Below, one piece after another: positions 2,904 to 19,225 of a stretch of DNA of 25,461 bases. Source of the stretch: a virus; IMG/VR virus record IMGVR_UViG_3300044971_001970, positions 1 through 25,461 of that record; one strand, given 5' to 3'. Made by a program: the position numbers and the translations under genes. The notes below the pieces were generated by a model. The model was given only the letters and a program-made list of their open reading frames with translations, made no database searches and was not told the DNA's origin. Every line of letters begins with the position of its first letter. The stretch's first letter is position 1.

Positions 2904-3398
2904 ATGGCAAAACGTGGATATAAAGCTACTGAACCAATATTAAGGTTCAATGAAAAATATATTGTTGATTCTGAAACTGGGTGCTGGCAATGGATAGCTT
3001 CAAAAAATGAGCAAGGATATGGTAAGTTTTCAATAACAAGATGCAAATGGGTTCACGCTCATAGATTTGCATATGAATATTATGTAGGTCAAATTAATGA
3101 TTTATATGTCTTACACAAATGTGATAATCCAGCTTGTTGTAATCCAAATCATTTATTTTTAGGAACTCAAAAAGATAATATGATTGATTGTAAAAACAAA
3201 AACAGAAATCATAAACCTATTGGCGAATTATGTGGAAGACATATTTTAAAAGAAAATGAAGTAATAGAAATAAAAAAAAGATTACAAAATTTTAAATATG
3301 GTGATTGTTTAAAAATCTCTAAAGAATATGGAGTTGATCCAAGAACTATTTCTAATATCAAATGTGGAATAAATTGGACTCATATTCATATCTCGTAA
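2904..3398 (+). CDS. HNH homing-type endonuclease (copy 1)
   Basis: A 164-residue free-standing HNH nuclease of the type often inserted between phage structural genes. The N-terminal part has DSETGCWQWIASKNEQGYGKF, common before HNH cores in this family, then AHRFAYE. The core is VLHKCDNPACCNPNHL (about 69-84) with His71, Asn80/82 and His83, plus cysteines that may hold zinc. The C-terminal 55 residues (KENEVIEIKKRL, EYGVDPRTISNIKCGINWTHI) look like a small helix-turn-helix that would help target DNA. It starts right after the terL stop with no clear ribosome binding site, so translation is probably coupled. Its stop lies inside a TCGTAAAATAA element. It is paralogous to the gene at 9682-10137. 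Likely a selfish element rather than a virion component. Confidence 0.88.
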   Translation: MAKRGYKATEPILRFNEKYIVDSETGCWQWIASKNEQGYGKFSITRCKWVHAHRFAYEYYVGQINDLYVLHKCDNPACCNPNHLFLGTQKDNMIDCKNKNRNHKPIGELCGRHILKENEVIEIKKRLQNFKYGDCLKISKEYGVDPRTISNIKCGINWTHIHIS

Positions 3399-5094: not shown

Positions 5095-5289
5095 ATGAGC
5101 TGGCTAAGCAAGTTATTAAAGAAAAAAACTAATATTCCAGAAGTAAAAATACCTTTTGGTGAAGCTCAAATTTTAAATCAGATCGCTGACAACTTAAACT
5201 TTATGAGTACATCTGACCTTGAAAAACTTAGAGACCTTACAATTTTTGTTATTGATAAACGTGAACGTCAAAAGATAATGAAAGACTAA
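5095..5289 (+). CDS. Small protein whose two ends resemble the portal's ends
   Basis: A 64-residue protein starting 2 bases after the portal stop and ending at a strong terminator, so it is the last gene of the portal unit. No known domain was recognised. It has a basic N-terminus (MSWLSKLLKKK) and a helical middle with NQIADNLNFMSTSDLEKLRDL. Its C-terminus, DKRERQKIMKD, nearly matches the portal's KRERDKIMKDR, and its start resembles the portal's MGIFSNLFGRK. It may be a remnant of a portal duplication with the middle lost, or a small head protein sharing a docking peptide. I cannot choose between these. Confidence 0.72.
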   Translation: MSWLSKLLKKKTNIPEVKIPFGEAQILNQIADNLNFMSTSDLEKLRDLTIFVIDKRERQKIMKD

Positions 5290-5323
5290 TAAAAAAGGGG
5301 AGCAAATGCTCCCCTTTTTTATT
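5288..5323. terminator. Strong bidirectional rho-independent terminator
   Basis: A perfect 17-base inverted repeat: AATAAAAAAGGGGAGCA at 5288-5304 pairs with TGCTCCCCTTTTTTATT at 5307-5323 around a tiny loop. The GC-rich part (GGGGAGC) is flanked by A6 on the left and T6 on the right, so it should end transcripts from both directions. It separates the rightward portal unit from the convergent leftward gene ending at 5322. Confidence 0.95.
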
Positions 5324-6881: not shown

Positions 6882-8279
6882 ATGTTCAATCTTAAAGCAA
6901 AACCAGAAGATTTAAAAATGAATGATTACGTTGAGTGGAACGCCAGTGGCGGTAAAGCTCAAGGTAAAGTCGTCGATATTAGAAAAGATGGTGAAGTAAA
7001 TAGTAACATATCTGATTATACTTTAACTGGTACAGAAGATGATCCTGTCTATGTTATTAAACTAGTACAAAGAGATTCAGAAGGAAATGATATCCTTACA
7101 GAACAAACTGTTATCCACAGAGCAGATGCATTGCGTGTTATTCCAGATCCTATCAAAAGTGTTAAAGTATTTCAAGGTTCTAATATTAAAGCTACAGGTC
7201 GTGGAATGGTTGAAGGCTATCTTGTTCGTTTTGGGAGTCCTTCAGATACTGACTTGGAGCGTGATTATTTTACCAAGAGCACTGACTTTGGTATGGAATT
7301 TCTTGATGGATCTTCTCACAAGTTAGGTTTATATTACAATCACGGTATGGATCCAGTAGTCAAAACTAAAAAGATTGGCTATGGAACTATCAAAATGACT
7401 GATAATGGTCTTTGGTATGAAGCTCAATTAGATATGGCTGATGAATATGCCAAAATGATTTATGAACTTGCTAAAAAAGGTAAATTAGGTTTTTCCTCAG
7501 GTGCTGCAAGTCATATGGTTGATAGAGAACCTATGGGTAAATCTTATCAGATTAAAAGATGGAATCTTGCAGAAGCGTCATTAACACCACAACCAGCGGA
7601 GAGTAGAAATATGGCATCAGTAAAAAGATACTATGATGAGATGGGTAGATTCATTCCTTACACTAGAGAAGAATTATCTCGTATGGATAAAAAAGAATAT
7701 GATGCCTATATGGGAATGATGTTCGACAAAATGAACACTATGAAGAATGAAGGCTACGATGACGAATACGACGATATTGATGATATGGTCGAAGGTACTA
7801 TCGCTGTTGGTTCTAGTCCTTCTATGATTGCTGAAACTGTATTTGAAGACTCTAACCTTGATGTTTTCAAGTATGGTATGAAATGTTTGTTAATGAAACT
7901 TAAATATGCTATGGTAAGTGTATTAGAATATGGTACTGCAGAAGATGCAGATGCTATTCTTATGAAATTCCATATGTTAGCATTAGATTTGTTTAACAAA
8001 ATGAAAATGGATAGCATCGACAAAATGATGGTTGATGAATCTGTAATGATGATGGATGAAGCTATGAAGAACATTAAGCCTTCATCTATAAAAGAAGTGG
8101 AGAAAATCCTGCGTGATGCTGGAAATATTTCACGAAGTCAATCTAAAAGATTGGCAAATCTGGTTTGGAATGTTCAGCGTGATGTTGAACCATCTCAAGA
8201 ACCACAAATAAAAACAAATGATGAAGAAGCTGAATTGAGAAAAAGCTTACTCGAAAAGGCTAAATCATTCCATATCTAA
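6882..8279 (+). CDS. Prohead protease with N-terminal TUDOR-like and C-terminal scaffold-like parts
   Basis: Three parts are visible in 465 residues. Residues about 9-87 (LKMNDYVEWNASGGKAQGKV, then TEDDPVYVIK and HRADALRVI) resemble the small beta-barrel called DUF2945 or hypervirulence-associated TUDOR. Residues about 95-245 are an HK97-type S78 prohead protease: GYLVRFGSPSDTDLERDYF, LYYNHGMDP with likely catalytic His154, KLGFSSGA with the likely catalytic serine (205 or 206), then WNLAEASLTPQPAESRN. Residues 245-465 are acidic and methionine-rich and end in KEVEKILRDAGNISRSQSKR, which I recall from scaffold segments fused to such proteases. It would cut the scaffold and capsid delta domain during maturation. 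AAGGA lies 7 bases before the ATG, and the major capsid gene follows 26 bases later. Confidence 0.9.
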   Translation: MFNLKAKPEDLKMNDYVEWNASGGKAQGKVVDIRKDGEVNSNISDYTLTGTEDDPVYVIKLVQRDSEGNDILTEQTVIHRADALRVIPDPIKSVKVFQGSNIKATGRGMVEGYLVRFGSPSDTDLERDYFTKSTDFGMEFLDGSSHKLGLYYNHGMDPVVKTKKIGYGTIKMTDNGLWYEAQLDMADEYAKMIYELAKKGKLGFSSGAASHMVDREPMGKSYQIKRWNLAEASLTPQPAESRNMASVKRYYDEMGRFIPYTREELSRMDKKEYDAYMGMMFDKMNTMKNEGYDDEYDDIDDMVEGTIAVGSSPSMIAETVFEDSNLDVFKYGMKCLLMKLKYAMVSVLEYGTAEDADAILMKFHMLALDLFNKMKMDSIDKMMVDESVMMMDEAMKNIKPSSIKEVEKILRDAGNISRSQSKRLANLVWNVQRDVEPSQEPQIKTNDEEAELRKSLLEKAKSFHI

Positions 8280-8305: not shown

Positions 8306-9610
8306 ATGAATCTTGAAGAAATCCAAGCCAAGATTAGTGAAAATGCTATCAAGGCTACTGAAATATTGGAGCAAGAAGATAGTGATATCGAAGTTGCTCA
8401 AAAAATGATCTCTGAGAATGAAGAATTAGTTAAGAAAGCTAGTATGCTTAAAGCTATTTCTGAAATTCCTACTGCGAATACTGAGGTAAAAAAAGTGTCT
8501 GATATAATTATTCCAGGATCTTCATCCTACAAAAACGTTAAAGGATTCTCTCCTGAGACAAGAGCTGACAAAGAAAAGATGGGTTATGCTTTTGGTCAGA
8601 TGGCTAAAATGGTTGGTCGTAATGACAAGAAAGCTCATCAGTGGTTAGTTGAGAATGGCTATTACACTAAAGGTCAGAATGAAACTACTGATGCAGACGG
8701 TGGATATTTAGTTCCACAGATTCTTGCTCGTGAAATTATCTTCCTTCGTGATAAGTATGGTGTTATGAGACAAAATGCTCGTGTTATGGGTATGAGTTCT
8801 GATAACTTAAATGTACCTAAAAACAGTGCATCTACTACTGCATACTGGGTAGCTGAAAACACCAACATTACTGCATCACAAATTACCTTCTCTAATGTTC
8901 AAATTCTTGCAAAGAAACTTGCAATCCTTACACAGGTATCTTCAGAGTTGAATGAAGACTCCATTGTTGATGTTGGAGCAGCTCTTGCAGAAGATATGGC
9001 ATATGTAATGGCATATAATGAAGACCTTGCTACCTTCTTAGGTGATGGTACTTCAACTTATGGTGGTATTACTGGTGTTGTTCCACAGATTGCAGCTGTT
9101 AACGGTGGTGCTAACGCAGGTTGGATTTACACAGGTGCTGACGTAACTGGTGGTTGGAACGCAACAACTCTTGCTGACCTTCGTAAACTTACTGCTGCTA
9201 TTCCTGAGTATGCAGACCGTCCAGGTCAGTGTGCGTTCTATATGAACCGTGCATTCTTCCAACAGGTTGTTTGTAATGACCTTGATGCTCTTAGTGGTAA
9301 CGGTTTCTTTGATCTTACTGCAGCTCCAGGACCTAACCCAACATTGTTCGGTTATCCTGTCATCTATACTCAGGTTCTTTCACAAGATCCAACTCCTGCT
9401 GCTGACACTGCTCTTGCATTGTTTGGTAATATGAGTACTGGAGCTATTATGGGTTCAAGACGTGATCTTAGAATTCAAGTATCTGATCAGATTGGATTCA
9501 TTAGTGATTCCCTTTACTTCAGAGCTACTGAAAGATTTGGATTTAAATATCACGATCTTCCAACAGCATCTGTTTGTGGATCTGTTGCAGTACTTGTTGC
9601 TAACAACTAA
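8306..9610 (+). CDS. Major capsid protein (HK97 fold)
   Basis: A 434-residue HK97-type capsid subunit. Residues 1-60 are a helical, charged arm (MNLEEIQAKISENAIKATEI) like the delta/scaffold segment removed during maturation. GGYLVPQILAREIIFL (about 132-147) begins the mature core, with VYVxxG-type capsid landmarks afterwards (NASTTAYW-like NSASTTAYWVAEN, then KKLAILTQVSSELNEDS and the peptide FLGDGTSTYGGITGV). The C-terminal part has GYPVIYTQVL and FGNMSTGAIMGSRRDLRIQ, typical of the P/A-domain region. Codons such as CGT, AAC and CTT are used more than in neighbours, as in a highly expressed gene. AAGGAA lies 5 bases before the ATG, and a strong terminator follows. Confidence 0.95.
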   Translation: MNLEEIQAKISENAIKATEILEQEDSDIEVAQKMISENEELVKKASMLKAISEIPTANTEVKKVSDIIIPGSSSYKNVKGFSPETRADKEKMGYAFGQMAKMVGRNDKKAHQWLVENGYYTKGQNETTDADGGYLVPQILAREIIFLRDKYGVMRQNARVMGMSSDNLNVPKNSASTTAYWVAENTNITASQITFSNVQILAKKLAILTQVSSELNEDSIVDVGAALAEDMAYVMAYNEDLATFLGDGTSTYGGITGVVPQIAAVNGGANAGWIYTGADVTGGWNATTLADLRKLTAAIPEYADRPGQCAFYMNRAFFQQVVCNDLDALSGNGFFDLTAAPGPNPTLFGYPVIYTQVLSQDPTPAADTALALFGNMSTGAIMGSRRDLRIQVSDQIGFISDSLYFRATERFGFKYHDLPTASVCGSVAVLVANN

Positions 9611-9630
9611 TCCTGGGGAGGATTATAAAG

Positions 9631-9681: not shown

Positions 9682-10137
9682 ATGCCTAAAAAAGAAGACC
9701 CGTTAATAAGATTTCATCGTAAATATGAAATTGATTCAGAAACTGGTTGTTGGTTATGGATAGGAAGTTTTTTTAATTCTGGTTATCCAAGATTTAAACT
9801 AAATAAAAAAGATTTATATTCTCACAGATTTTCATATGAGACTTTTGTTGGTTCTTTAAATCCAAAACTTGAGATATGTCATTGTTGCAATAATAAAGCT
9901 TGTGTAAATCCAAATCATCTACGTCAAGATACAAGCTCTTCAAATAGTATTGATAGAAGTTATGATTTTTCACAAAATGGTCAAAAACTTACATCACAAC
10001 AAGTAAAAGAAATTAAAATTGAATTACAAAATCCATATAGAGGATTAAATAAAATATTATCAATAAAATATGGAGTAGATTCTTCTACTATAACTGCTAT
10101 AAAAATAGGTAAATCTTGGTCTCATTTAAAAATCTAA
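9682..10137 (+). CDS. HNH homing-type endonuclease (copy 2)
   Basis: A 151-residue paralogue of the HNH protein at 2904-3398. They share IDSETGCWLWI near the N-terminus, HRFSYETFVG (about 48-57) and the core ICHCCNNKACVNPNHL (about 65-80) with His67, Asn77 and His79. The C-terminal half (TSQQVKEIKIELQNPYRGLN, then KYGVDSSTITAIKIGKSWSHL) is a helix-turn-helix like that of copy 1. It probably cleaves a specific site in related phages that lack it. The start has no ribosome binding site and coincides with a predicted transcription start, suggesting leaderless translation. It sits between the capsid terminator and the connector promoter element, so it is independent of the structural units. Confidence 0.87.
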   Translation: MPKKEDPLIRFHRKYEIDSETGCWLWIGSFFNSGYPRFKLNKKDLYSHRFSYETFVGSLNPKLEICHCCNNKACVNPNHLRQDTSSSNSIDRSYDFSQNGQKLTSQQVKEIKIELQNPYRGLNKILSIKYGVDSSTITAIKIGKSWSHLKI

Positions 10138-11076: not shown

Positions 11077-12498
11077 ATGGCAATAGTAACAGCTAATTTA
11101 CAATGCAACTTAGATTCTACAAATCCTGCATCAAATACTGGAACAGGCAATACTTGGTTTGACTTATCTGCAAATAATCTTGATTTTACAGGTACTGGAA
11201 CAAGTAGAATATCATTTGCAGGTATAGATTGTTTTGATTTAGGATCTGGTAAATATTTTGATGGTCCTAATAACTTATCATCAGTAATTGATTGGGATGC
11301 TGATTGGACTGTAGAGTTATGGATTAATGTAGATGGAAGCCAAGCAAGTACTTATCATACTCCTTGGGGAACTGGTTCAAATACATCAGGAGCTGGTGGA
11401 TTTAATATTCAAACTAACGTTCCATTAGGAACAAGAGGATATTTCGAATATACTGGCGGTTCTTATGAAATAACTGTATATCCAGCCGCAACAGTTGATA
11501 TACCAAGAGACTCTACTACTATTCACCAGTTTGTAGTTAGAAAATCTGGAACTACTATACAATTTTTATTAGATGGTGTTCCTTCTTATTCAAGATCTGG
11601 TATTACAAATGCAATATCTTTAAATTCTGATGCATTTTATATTGGTTATCACTCATTTTATAGTGCAATGGTTGGTAAAGTAGCAGCCTTAAGAGCTTAC
11701 GATGTTGCTCTTACAAATGCTGAAGTATTGCAAAATTACTATTCAGGTCCTACTGCAACTGTTATCACAGAGTTTGACTTTTCAGATACAAACTCTTATT
11801 CAGGATCAGGTAACACTGTTTATGACATTAGCGGTTTTGGAAATTACGCTTTAATTACTGGAGCAACATTTGCAGGATCTGGAACAAGTAAGTATTTTGA
11901 GTTTACAGGTGCAAATGATAATATTTATTCTCCTGTAACATTGCTACCAAATGCATCAAATCCTGTATGGACTGAAAATATTTGGTTTCAAGCTGAACCT
12001 GTTTCTGATAGAATTGTTTATTGTTATGGAACAAATCCACCAACTTCAAACTCAGGGACAACAATATTAGCATATGGTTTTTCTGGAATACACGGTGGAA
12101 ACTTCTTTTATGAAGCTGGTTCTGGAGCAGACAGAATAAACTTAGGATTTGGTGCAACATCTGGTGTTTGGAATAACATTGTTTTGTCAGCATCTGGAAC
12201 TACTGTTTCTGCATATCTAAATGGAAGTTTTATTGCATCAGGAGCTCAAACTGAAAGTATATTAGTTCCAAAATATATGAATATTTCTGGATTATCACAA
12301 GGTGCATCTGCTCCTAGTGGATATATGTTTGATGGAAAAGTTGCAATATTTAGAGTTTACAATTATGCTCAAACAGCTGGAGAAATATCTGCTCAATTTA
12401 CAATTGATAATGCAAGATTTGCTGGTGGACCTCCTCCACCTTCTCCATATACAGGTCTTGTAGGTGGTAGAACATTCGGTCAAGGCTTTGCAGGATAA
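11077..12498 (+). CDS. Tandem lectin-like (concanavalin A/LamG fold) surface protein
   Basis: A 473-residue protein with two related jelly-roll halves. The first (about 1-225) has NTWFDLSANNLDF, YFDGPNNLSSVIDWDADWTV, ELWINVDG and FYIGYHSFYSAMVGKVAALR with YDVALTNAEVLQNY. The second (about 228-445) has NTVYDISGFGNYALITGATF, SPVTLLPNASNPVWTENIWF, NNIVLSASGTTVSAYLNGSF and GKVAIFRVYNYAQTAGEI. These are the repeating landmarks of LamG-like sugar-binding domains. The C-terminus is a proline and glycine tail (GGPPPPSPYTGLVGGRTFGQ), possibly an anchor. It sits between head-closure and neck genes, so I infer a head or neck decoration or fibre that touches host surface sugars. No catalytic residues were identified. 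Confidence 0.8.
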   Translation: MAIVTANLQCNLDSTNPASNTGTGNTWFDLSANNLDFTGTGTSRISFAGIDCFDLGSGKYFDGPNNLSSVIDWDADWTVELWINVDGSQASTYHTPWGTGSNTSGAGGFNIQTNVPLGTRGYFEYTGGSYEITVYPAATVDIPRDSTTIHQFVVRKSGTTIQFLLDGVPSYSRSGITNAISLNSDAFYIGYHSFYSAMVGKVAALRAYDVALTNAEVLQNYYSGPTATVITEFDFSDTNSYSGSGNTVYDISGFGNYALITGATFAGSGTSKYFEFTGANDNIYSPVTLLPNASNPVWTENIWFQAEPVSDRIVYCYGTNPPTSNSGTTILAYGFSGIHGGNFFYEAGSGADRINLGFGATSGVWNNIVLSASGTTVSAYLNGSFIASGAQTESILVPKYMNISGLSQGASAPSGYMFDGKVAIFRVYNYAQTAGEISAQFTIDNARFAGGPPPPSPYTGLVGGRTFGQGFAG

Positions 12499-16207: not shown

Positions 16208-16648
16208 ATGCCACAACCAGTTTTAGTTTCAGAAGCTCTTGTTGAAATCAGTTTTGGTGCTGATTCACAATCAGTTGGTGGAGCAGGAAGTATTCCTGCA
16301 GGTCCTACTCTTAATTACGAATGCCAAGCAAGATCTGTTAGAGCAACAGTTACTGCACGTCAACAAGATCTTACCACACTTTGTTCAACCACTGAAGCAA
16401 CCTTCACTACAGGTCTTACAGGTTCTCTTGAAATAGAATTGTATATCGATGATACTACAGGTCCTATTTTTGCATATAAAACAGGCTTCTTATGCAAAGT
16501 AAAGATTACTCCAGGTGGTGGTGGTTCTACTCTTACTTACCAAGGTCTTGTAACTGATAGTTCAGTAACGTATACTCCTGGTGAAGTTGAAATGGAAACA
16601 GCTACGCTCAAACTCGGTGCATTCGGATTTACAGAAGTTTATAATTAG
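16208..16648 (+). CDS. Major tail tube protein
   Basis: A 146-residue beta-rich protein (VLVSEALVEISFGADSQSVG; ECQARSVRATVTARQQDLTT; GLTGSLEIELYIDDTTGPIF; TYQGLVTDSSVTYTPGEVEM). The pattern of long strands with glycine turns, the size and the position just before the tail assembly chaperone fit the tail tube subunit of long-tailed phages. The segment GSLEIELYIDD matches the strand that often follows a loop in these proteins. AAGGAA lies 6 bases upstream of the ATG. Tube subunits are normally among the most abundant tail proteins. Confidence 0.75.
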   Translation: MPQPVLVSEALVEISFGADSQSVGGAGSIPAGPTLNYECQARSVRATVTARQQDLTTLCSTTEATFTTGLTGSLEIELYIDDTTGPIFAYKTGFLCKVKITPGGGGSTLTYQGLVTDSSVTYTPGEVEMETATLKLGAFGFTEVYN

Positions 16649-16659
16649 TAAGGAAAAAT

Positions 16660-17040
16660 ATGATTAAAGGTCTCTCTAAGATTAAAAAAGTTAGTCTTCG
16701 TCCATCTATTAAAATTGATTTAAGTGATTATGCTGAAGAAGAATGTTTTGTAGAATTGTCTGAACCAACAGCAGCAGCTTTGTTTCCAGATACTGCAACA
16801 TTGCAAAGTCTTAAAATCAAGTTTCCAACATTTCCAGAAGCAATGATTTATCAAATTGTTCTTATGGGTAAATGTTATGTTACACAGAAGGATGATCCTG
16901 ATTCAATTAATCCTATGATTGACTTTGCTAATATAGCTAAAAGCAATAAAGATTGTTTTTATTATATCCTTACTGAGTTCTTGAATGCATATCCAACTGC
17001 AGATTTTGATAGTAGAGTAACAGAAGCAAAAAACGGTTAA
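16660..17040 (+). CDS. Tail assembly chaperone, short form (gpG-like)
   Basis: A 126-residue, mostly helical and acidic protein between the tail tube and tape measure genes, the standard position of the gpG-type chaperone. It contains IKIDLSDYAEEECFVELSEP near the start, FPEAMIYQIVLMGKCYVTQK in the middle and SNKDCFYYILTEFLNAYPTA near the end. AAGGA lies shortly before the ATG at 16660. It ends in a TAA at 17038, four bases after an A AAA AAC slippery site, so most ribosomes should make this short form. It would coat the tape measure protein and recruit tube subunits. Confidence 0.85.
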   Translation: MIKGLSKIKKVSLRPSIKIDLSDYAEEECFVELSEPTAAALFPDTATLQSLKIKFPTFPEAMIYQIVLMGKCYVTQKDDPDSINPMIDFANIAKSNKDCFYYILTEFLNAYPTADFDSRVTEAKNG

Positions 17041-17219
17041 TCGGATGTTCTCCGCAAGTACTTTATTATTGTGTAAGGTATTTAAAGAGGCATCCGAGTG
17101 AAACCGACCTAACTCTTCATCAAATAGCAGAAGTAGCATATGTAGCAAGAGAAATTGAAAAGGCAGAAGCTGAACAGGCTAATGCTATTTTAAAAGCATT
17201 ATTAGGAAGTAGACTATGA
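16660..17219 (+). CDS. Tail assembly chaperone, long frameshifted form (gpGT-like)
   Basis: A -1 slip on A AAA AAC at 17028-17034 carries ribosomes past the TAA at 17038 and adds 61 residues, for a fused 186-residue protein. The extension (RLIGCSPQVLYYCVRYLKRH, then LTLHQIAEVAYVAREIEKAE and a helical end, AILKALLGSRL) has no good start codon of its own. It is well formed and ends exactly at the tape measure start (ATGA overlap), as expected for the T domain, which binds tube subunits in lambda. The CDS is joined across the shift: 16660-17034, then 17034-17219, reading base 17034 twice. Confidence 0.85.
17028..17106 (+). other. Programmed -1 frameshift element (slippery site plus stem)
   Basis: The heptamer A AAA AAC is in the correct frame at 17028-17034. 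Six bases later TCGGATG (17041-17047) pairs perfectly with CATCCGA (17091-17097). A further pairing of CGGTT (17034-17038) with AACCG (17102-17106) extends the same stem across a small internal loop. Inside the loop TACTTT (17059-17064) can pair with AAGGTA (17075-17080), with one G-U. The spacer and stem are typical of frameshift stimulators. Confidence 0.88.
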
Positions 17220-19225
17220 CATTTGCAGAATTAGTCATCAAGTTCTCAGCAACTGGTGATGGTCAAACTAAAAATCAAATAAGAGCAATTGAAGTAGAAC
17301 TTAAGAATGTTTCAAATGCTTCTGTTAATGCTGCTAATAAAATATCACAAAGTTTTCAAAAAATAAGTTCTTCTCGGGGATTATTATTTTTAGAATCTTT
17401 TGGTCAAAATGTAAGTAATCAATTTACTCAAGCTGCTGCATCAAGTGTACCATTTGGTAACAATATTCTTGATTTAGTTCAGTCATTTGCTTTATTAACA
17501 TTATCAGCTGAAAATGTCCAAAAAGGCATAGTAAAAATAACTGCTTCAAGTATTGCAAAAATGATTAGTCCTGTAAATGCTTTAGCATCAGGATTTGCTA
17601 ATGCATCTAATAAATTAGCTACATATCTTCAATACGATACTGAATTTGGCAAAATGGATCCTGGTGATATGAATAAATTTCAATATAAGATTTTTTCATC
17701 AGTCCAAGGATTAGAAGATTTATCAGATAAAACTAAAAAACTTTCTGATAATTTAAAAACGTTCATTTCAGGCGTTGGTGTTGAAGGATCTGCAATAGAA
17801 AACTTTGCTGCTAAACTAACAGTATTAGGTAGTAGATTTTTAAGTATTACTGGATTTATTGCTGGTGTTGTTGCAGCAATGGCAATTCTTACTGCTGCAA
17901 CAGTAGCTATGAACCTTGCTATTGCTAAATCAACAGTACAAGCTGCATTTAACTTTGAACAACTACAAGCAAGATTATCAGCCTTAAAAGGTCCAGCAAA
18001 AGCTAATGATATTTTGGAGTTTGTAAGAAGATTAGCTGAACCATCTAACTTTACTACAGAACAGTTATCAAACTCTGCTGTTCAACTTGAGGCATTTGGC
18101 TTAAATGCTAAACGTATTCTTCCTATCATTGCTCAATTAGGTATGGCATTTGGAGCTGATGAAGAAAAATTAAGATTACTTACAGATATGTTTGGAAGAT
18201 TAAGTCAAGGTCAACTTCCAGATGTTCAAGTAATGGCTCAATTTGGTCTTTCTAAATCTAAATTGATGAAAGAAGGAATTAAGTTTGATGCTCAAGGATC
18301 ATTACTATCTTCCACAAGAGAAGTAATGGTAGCTATGGAAAAGATTATCAATAGAGATTATGGAAAAATCTTTGAACAAATGGCTAATACTGGCAATGCT
18401 AAACTTGCATCTCTTACTGACGTATTTGAAAGATTAAAAATACAAGTTGGTAATCAGTTAGCTGATACTGCTAAAGTTGCTATATCAAGTTTTGCAAATA
18501 TATTAGGAGCTCTTGAAAGATCAGGAGTTCTTGAACAAGCTGCTAAAACAATGTTATATCCTTTTGAAGCCTTAGGAAAAGTATTAGGTTTGAATGGTGG
18601 AACTGGTGTATTCTCAAATGCTCAAATGGCAATGGCAAGTTTTACTGGAGCTTTAATTGCTGGATTTGAAGAATTAAATATACAAACATCTTTATTCGTA
18701 ACTCAACTTGGTAGAATATTTGAATTATTAGTAAATCCACAAGGACTTACTGGTATGGCATATCTTGATAATGTTGGTAAGTTGATAAAAGATATTGGCA
18801 AAGGTATTAGTGGTCAAATAGCTCCATCAAGAATGGCAAACAGAGGTACTGATATTGCTATGGCATTATTAGGAGAGTTACAAAATGCTCCAACAACTGA
18901 TATTAGTAAACTCTTAGATGAATCTAAAAAAACTGATTTTGGTAAGCTTGAAGATTTATTAAAAAATGATAAACTTAAACAAGTAAAAACATTAGAGAAA
19001 ATAGAACAAAATACTAAAACTCAAAACGAATTAACATTAAGAAATATGACTTATGGTGGTGGAGAATTAGCTGCTCAAGGTATATCTGCTGTTCAAATGG
19101 GTGGATTTAGAAGTGTATCAAGTCCACAAATAAATGCAAGTAATGATATTGTTCGTGGAGTAGAAAAGATTGTCAGAGGTTATTCTAATTCTAATAATCT
19201 CAACTTTAGTTTTAGGAGATCTTAA
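17216..19225 (+). CDS. Tape measure protein
   Basis: A 669-residue, helix-rich protein directly after the chaperone. The N-terminus (MTFAELVIKFSATGDGQTKN) and the following helices fit tape measure proteins. A hydrophobic stretch (about 208-237; LSITGFIAGVVAAMAILTAA) is a likely membrane segment. Residues about 245-430 hold the conserved domain (FNFEQLQARLSALKGPAKAN; LSNSAVQLEAFGLNAKRILP; LTDMFGRLSQGQLPDVQVMA; SLTDVFERLKIQVGNQLADT). It sets tail length, and 669 residues suggest a fairly short siphovirus tail (about 100 nm at the usual 0.15 nm per residue). AGGAAG lies 6 bases before the ATG, which overlaps the chaperone stop. The stop overlaps the next start (TAATG). Confidence 0.93.
   Translation: MTFAELVIKFSATGDGQTKNQIRAIEVELKNVSNASVNAANKISQSFQKISSSRGLLFLESFGQNVSNQFTQAAASSVPFGNNILDLVQSFALLTLSAENVQKGIVKITASSIAKMISPVNALASGFANASNKLATYLQYDTEFGKMDPGDMNKFQYKIFSSVQGLEDLSDKTKKLSDNLKTFISGVGVEGSAIENFAAKLTVLGSRFLSITGFIAGVVAAMAILTAATVAMNLAIAKSTVQAAFNFEQLQARLSALKGPAKANDILEFVRRLAEPSNFTTEQLSNSAVQLEAFGLNAKRILPIIAQLGMAFGADEEKLRLLTDMFGRLSQGQLPDVQVMAQFGLSKSKLMKEGIKFDAQGSLLSSTREVMVAMEKIINRDYGKIFEQMANTGNAKLASLTDVFERLKIQVGNQLADTAKVAISSFANILGALERSGVLEQAAKTMLYPFEALGKVLGLNGGTGVFSNAQMAMASFTGALIAGFEELNIQTSLFVTQLGRIFELLVNPQGLTGMAYLDNVGKLIKDIGKGISGQIAPSRMANRGTDIAMALLGELQNAPTTDISKLLDESKKTDFGKLEDLLKNDKLKQVKTLEKIEQNTKTQNELTLRNMTYGGGELAAQGISAVQMGGFRSVSSPQINASNDIVRGVEKIVRGYSNSNNLNFSFRRS

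Follow-up and report, generated by a model that had tools for sequence, protein, structure and literature searches.

This locus raises two questions: how a short reading frame lying between a putative tail assembly chaperone gene and a presumed tape measure gene of an uncultured phage is expressed, and whether the RNA hairpin just past the end of the first gene takes part in this. The whole stretch of DNA that was analysed, called the window here, is a virus contig of 25,461 bases from IMG/VR. Its structural genes include those for a terminase, a portal (PF04860), a prohead protease (PF04586), an HK97-type capsid (PF05065), a head completion protein (PF05521), an HK97-gp10-like protein (PF04883), a putative tail tube, G and a putative tape measure; this gene set points to an HK97-type tailed phage, probably a long-tailed one. 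In the region of interest, a 146-aa gene on the + strand (16208-16648), presumed from its position only to encode the tail tube protein, is followed on the same strand by gene G (16660-17040), the zero-frame product of which is a putative tail assembly chaperone of 126 aa. The T domain follows in the -1 frame (17034-17219, 61 codons plus TGA), and after it comes a gene for a protein of 669 aa (17216-19225), presumed to be the tape measure. The neighbours of G and T are named by order and size, and neither the presumed tail tube protein nor the presumed tape measure protein gave a significant match in family searches.

As originally predicted, an in-frame A AAA AAC is located just ahead of the stop codon of G, at 17028-17034 on the + strand. 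The frame across it reads gcA AAA AAC GGT TAA, with the stop codon of G at 17038-17040, 3 bases (one codon) past the heptamer; the GGT and this stop form the 6-nt spacer (17035-17040) that precedes the hairpin. Over 61 codons (17034-17216) the -1 frame has no stop, and it ends, as had been claimed, at the start of the presumed tape measure gene, its TGA (17217-17219) overlapping the ATG at 17216 in the sequence ATGA. For tandem slippage, the proposed junction EAKN|RLIG is the correct one as deduced from the sequence, while EAKK|RLIG would be expected if the slip precedes decoding of AAC. The window contains 36 in-frame XXXYYYZ sites; of the other sites in which A, G or T is followed by A, the 13 that were listed lead into a -1 frame of at most 23 codons, compared with 61 at the G-T site. 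In-frame A AAA AAC is also present at 1582-1588, one codon ahead of the stop of an ORF (1178-1594) that lies before the terminase; the -1 frame is open there for just 6 codons.

With G as the query, 20 contigs were found, and both heptamer and -1 frame are preserved in each of them. Using the T domain, 57 loci were found, with identities as low as 43 %, and another search gave 58 loci, several of them new. After removal of identical stretches and of three weak matches (L140, L141 and L142), the comparison set consisted of 58 distinct 88-nt sequences, including that of the window. The three weak matches were excluded from the family on account of their E value (2e-4) and of a T in another frame relation: a T-like domain (FKYLKRHPSELDLTL) at 2411-2740 of L140, and in the same region of L141 and L142, is in the +1 (or -2) frame relative to an upstream ORF of 160-167 aa, and all three share TTT CCG, where a +1 slip could happen. 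No match to G or T was obtained in 50,697 phage records, nor to G in bacterial and archaeal genome contigs.

Each of the 58 sequences carries an in-frame slippery heptamer of the form X XXY YYZ at the same site at the G-T junction (A AAA AAC in 47, G GGA AAC in ten and A AAA AAA in one). On a tree built from G the heptamer has switched at least four times, each time into another X XXY YYZ motif. T is kept as a protein in the -1 frame across all 58 sequences, with changes mostly at third positions; in clade A, to which the window belongs, T codons 24-45 differ by 0.25, 0.10 and 0.44 per codon at positions 1, 2 and 3, respectively. By this comparison, selection acts on T as a -1-frame protein. 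In every sequence, a stem that is 7 bp long or longer begins 3-7 nt past the heptamer, mostly 5-6 nt; for bacterial -1 signals stimulated by a stem-loop, a distance of about 5-8 nt is expected. Homologues that retain the -1 frame and lack both the slip site and the stem, which the original prediction named as evidence that would speak against it, were looked for among the 58, and there are none.

The 7-bp stem that had been described, TCGGATG (17041-17047) paired with CATCCGA (17091-17097) after a spacer of 6 nt, is present in the window. In the minimum-energy fold it is lengthened by a U-G pair, followed by a segment of 3 bp and an upper stem of 11 bp. The resulting 57-nt hairpin on the + strand (17041-17097) is composed of 8 bp (17041-17048/17090-17097), 3 bp (17050-17052/17087-17089) and 11 bp (17056-17066/17073-17083) and is closed by a 6-nt loop; it folds with -23.4 kcal/mol (z -5.8 relative to dinucleotide shuffles). 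The picture of a two-tier stem around a small inner hairpin held for the core stem and had to be revised for the rest. The inner element is the 11-bp upper stem, larger than claimed, and as it is stacked on the 3 bp and the 8 bp, the stimulator forms a single long, imperfect hairpin. The outer stem, CGGTT (17034-17038) with AACCG (17102-17106), uses the last base of the heptamer; it exists in the window and is not conserved. Over the 20 members of clade A, 66 % of its cells pair, and in 13 of them 2 of the 4 pairs counted are missing. This 4- to 5-bp outer stem was not accepted as a conserved element and probably does not belong to the signal. When 5,081 segments of 57 nt were scanned over the window, only nine folded more stably than the hairpin, at two places, both at gene ends. 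These more stable folds start at 5271-5291 and 9601-9616 and are possibly terminators.

A hairpin inside a coding sequence might be an incidental by-product of conserved T codons, in which case the frameshift would be real and the heptamer and the nearby stop would suffice for it, as is commonly held for lambda. Part of the data agrees with this. When codons were permuted within T and only the contiguous lower stem was scored, the stem of the window was not unusual (p 0.115, or 11.5 %); over the 58 sequences the median p was 0.03, with 36 below 0.05. This stem-only test is weak because many T residues allow little codon choice and conserved residues supply part of the stem. Energy of the whole fold is the better test, and it speaks against a by-product: in shuffles that preserve the T protein and the codons, the fold of the window has a z of -3.8, with 1 of 300 shuffles as low, the mean z over 51 sequences is -3.0, and nearly all sequences beat their protein-preserving shuffles. 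Excess folding energy per nt was calculated as in PMC4066793. The window has 0.27, and none of the 56 sequences measured falls below 0.09, the lowest value among known IS3-family stimulators (PMC4066793).

Covariation in homologues, which had been suggested as a check, was observed for the core hairpin. In clade A, 91.8 % of the cells pair, and 15 compensatory cells were counted as opposed to 4.9 in shuffles; compensatory changes are seen in the hairpin of clade B, too. Clade C has no pair changed on both sides, which is in line with an incidental hairpin and makes pair counts uninformative there. Taken together, the sequences indicate that a stable structure 3-7 nt past the heptamer is under selection across the family.

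The clades differ in where the 3' arm of the stem is found. Positions are directly comparable, as the alignment of T in this stretch has no gaps apart from an extra codon that three sequences have. The 5' arm finds its partner in T codons 19-22 (the RHP codons) in the 20 sequences of clade A, and in T codons 11-14, encoding YYSV and variants, across a loop of 16-18 nt in the 18 sequences of clade B. The partner consists of T codons 16-20 (YLHRH) in clade C (16 sequences), of T codons 17-19, with the extra codon counted, in clade D (3 sequences), and of T codons 20-22 in the single sequence L084. Mean scores of arm pairing within the own clade are 19.0 for A, 17.5 for B and 27.6 for C, and they drop to 9.2-12.7 when arms are swapped between clades. 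In clade B, one pair occurs as A-U, C-G and U-A, and the T residue it touches varies between Ser, Ala and Thr. On the tree of G, clades A, C and D each form one group and B is scattered over several branches; the register of the stem has changed at least four times. Register B would plausibly be the older state, a reading limited by the long branches and the midpoint root of this tree.

These data make it likely that the stimulator evolves by partner exchange: slip site, spacer and 5' arm would keep their places, while the 3' arm would have moved among coding sites of T at least four times, and the sequences of the arms, and even amino acids of T, would have changed to match. If so, what selection maintains is the stability of a stem and its distance from the heptamer, not one particular RNA structure, and the strong hairpin keeps AAC-type heptamers of low efficiency in use. 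A literature search of partial coverage returned no report of partner exchange in such a stimulator. For an incidental hairpin, neither pairing that is good only within the own clade nor a distance between stem and heptamer that stays constant while the partner changes would be expected, and together with the fold energies and the compensatory changes this makes that explanation improbable, although the unremarkable lower stem of the window and the invariant pairs of clade C leave it some weight.

A selected hairpin at a fixed distance also bears on the nature of the frame change, which might be brought about by RNA polymerase slipping on the A run and not by the ribosome. The homopolymer at the heptamer is six A long in the window (17028-17033) and seven in L041, as such slippage would want it. 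Six A is, however, short for bacterial transcriptional slippage, ten relatives have G GGA AAC at the same site and thus no long homopolymer, and polymerase slippage has no need for a downstream hairpin at a fixed distance; we regard it as very unlikely.

Less probable still, T might have a start codon of its own and be an independent gene, not part of a fusion. Some relatives do have GTG or TTG inside T, and L041 has ATG. Yet the T frame of the window contains no ATG, GTG or TTG codon, several relatives likewise lack all three in this stretch, and any such codon in the others is at T codon 10 or further on, past the conserved RLxG with which T begins; an own start would also leave the conserved heptamer unexplained. 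That the hairpin acts between G and the gene after it as a transcription terminator or in mRNA processing, as the strong folds at the gene ends near 5271 and 9601 may be, is equally hard to credit, since it sits inside a coding sequence and its stem begins 3-7 nt past the heptamer in all relatives, whichever 3' partner is used. No terminator-like site was found within 16600-17300, and Rfam gave no match.

The identity of G was approached through sequence families and structure. G and T gave no convincing family in Pfam and PHROG, and G gave no match to PDB sequences. When a structure model of G made from 18 members (pLDDT 87.9) was compared with solved structures, the best matches over the full length were to YqbN (3klu, Z 6.6) and to the tail assembly chaperone of HK97 (2ob9, Z 6.0, Foldseek E 0.076). 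These resemblances are not significant alone: they rank somewhat above the unrelated rows beneath them, at just 8-17 % identity, and with Z below 8 a shared chaperone fold is likely and unproven. With the gene order and the frameshift added to the fold matches, a role of G as a tail assembly chaperone is likely.

With these elements in place, we are highly confident that the locus is a tail assembly chaperone gene of the gpG/gpGT type that is expressed through programmed -1 ribosomal frameshifting. We infer that most ribosomes would translate G and terminate at 17038-17040, and that a minority would pause with the hairpin 17041-17097 at the mRNA entry channel, AAA in the P site and AAC in the A site. 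Both tRNAs would then slip back onto AAA AAA and the -1 frame would be read through T, giving a G-T fusion that ends where the presumed tape measure gene begins. In lambda, the tape measure protein is bound by both gpG and gpGT, and the tail tube protein by the T part (PMC5009743). By analogy, G would serve as a coat for the tape measure protein, and recruitment of the tail tube protein would fall to the scarcer G-T.

The locus resembles the lambda system (PMC5009743, PMC7618472) in having a pair of overlapping genes, here between a presumed tail tube gene and a presumed tape measure gene, in the X XXY YYZ motif near the end of the first gene and in the -1 fusion product, which is a predicted one here. 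Unlike lambda, where the heptamer is G GGA AAG, the family uses A AAA AAC or G GGA AAC, and neither G nor T has detectable sequence similarity to its lambda counterpart. A strong stimulator hairpin is not known for lambda gpG/gpGT, whereas the family described here has a conserved strong one. The HK97 tail assembly chaperone is a second, possible point of likeness, through the weak fold match of the G model (2ob9) and the HK97-type capsid and gp10-like genes of the window. With the -1 signals of IS911, IS3 and dnaX the locus shares an X XXY YYZ heptamer, a short spacer and a downstream RNA structure, and the fold energy per nt of IS3-family hairpins is similar to that found here (PMC4066793). 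It differs from them in its genes and products and in a 3' partner of the stem that varies by clade; moreover, the IS3 structure is a pseudoknot, and IS911 has an upstream Shine-Dalgarno-like stimulator as well (PMC4066793).

Both A AAA AAC and G GGA AAC work with low efficiency as slippery heptamers in E. coli (PMC4066793). The efficiency of a heptamer depends on the tRNA-Lys and tRNA-Asn of the host and may differ in the host of this phage. For the frameshift in the window, the low efficiency of A AAA AAC is a point against; it is also compatible with a dependence of the frameshift on the stimulator. If the host resembles E. coli, it may be the reason why a strong hairpin is always found next to these heptamers in the family.

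Frameshifting in tail assembly chaperone genes is widespread, but a stimulator that is demonstrably selected has rarely been shown there; in a survey of enterobacterial genes, predicted hairpins were judged relevant in just one phage cluster (PMC4066793). A gpG/gpGT frameshift with a stem-loop stimulator is of a known kind, and what is added here is evidence for a stimulator selected across a family of uncultured phages, the 3' partner of which has been exchanged several times. More than 50 natural variants, in which the slip site and the spacer are near-constant and the hairpin partner, loop size and stability vary, offer a ready test of whether a stimulator is required for its position, its stability or its shape.

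Several other features of the window were recorded. A 255-aa protein encoded ahead of the terminase genes (418-1185) has a sigma-70 region 2 domain (PF04542, E 8.5e-11), and two HNH_3 endonuclease genes (2904-3398 and 9682-10137) lie among the structural genes. The prohead protease (6882-8279) carries an additional N-terminal Hva1_TUDOR domain (PF11160, E 2.8e-7). A concanavalin-like lectin protein of 473 aa, with two stretches of Laminin_G_3, is encoded at 11077-12498, between the genes for head completion and those for the tail.
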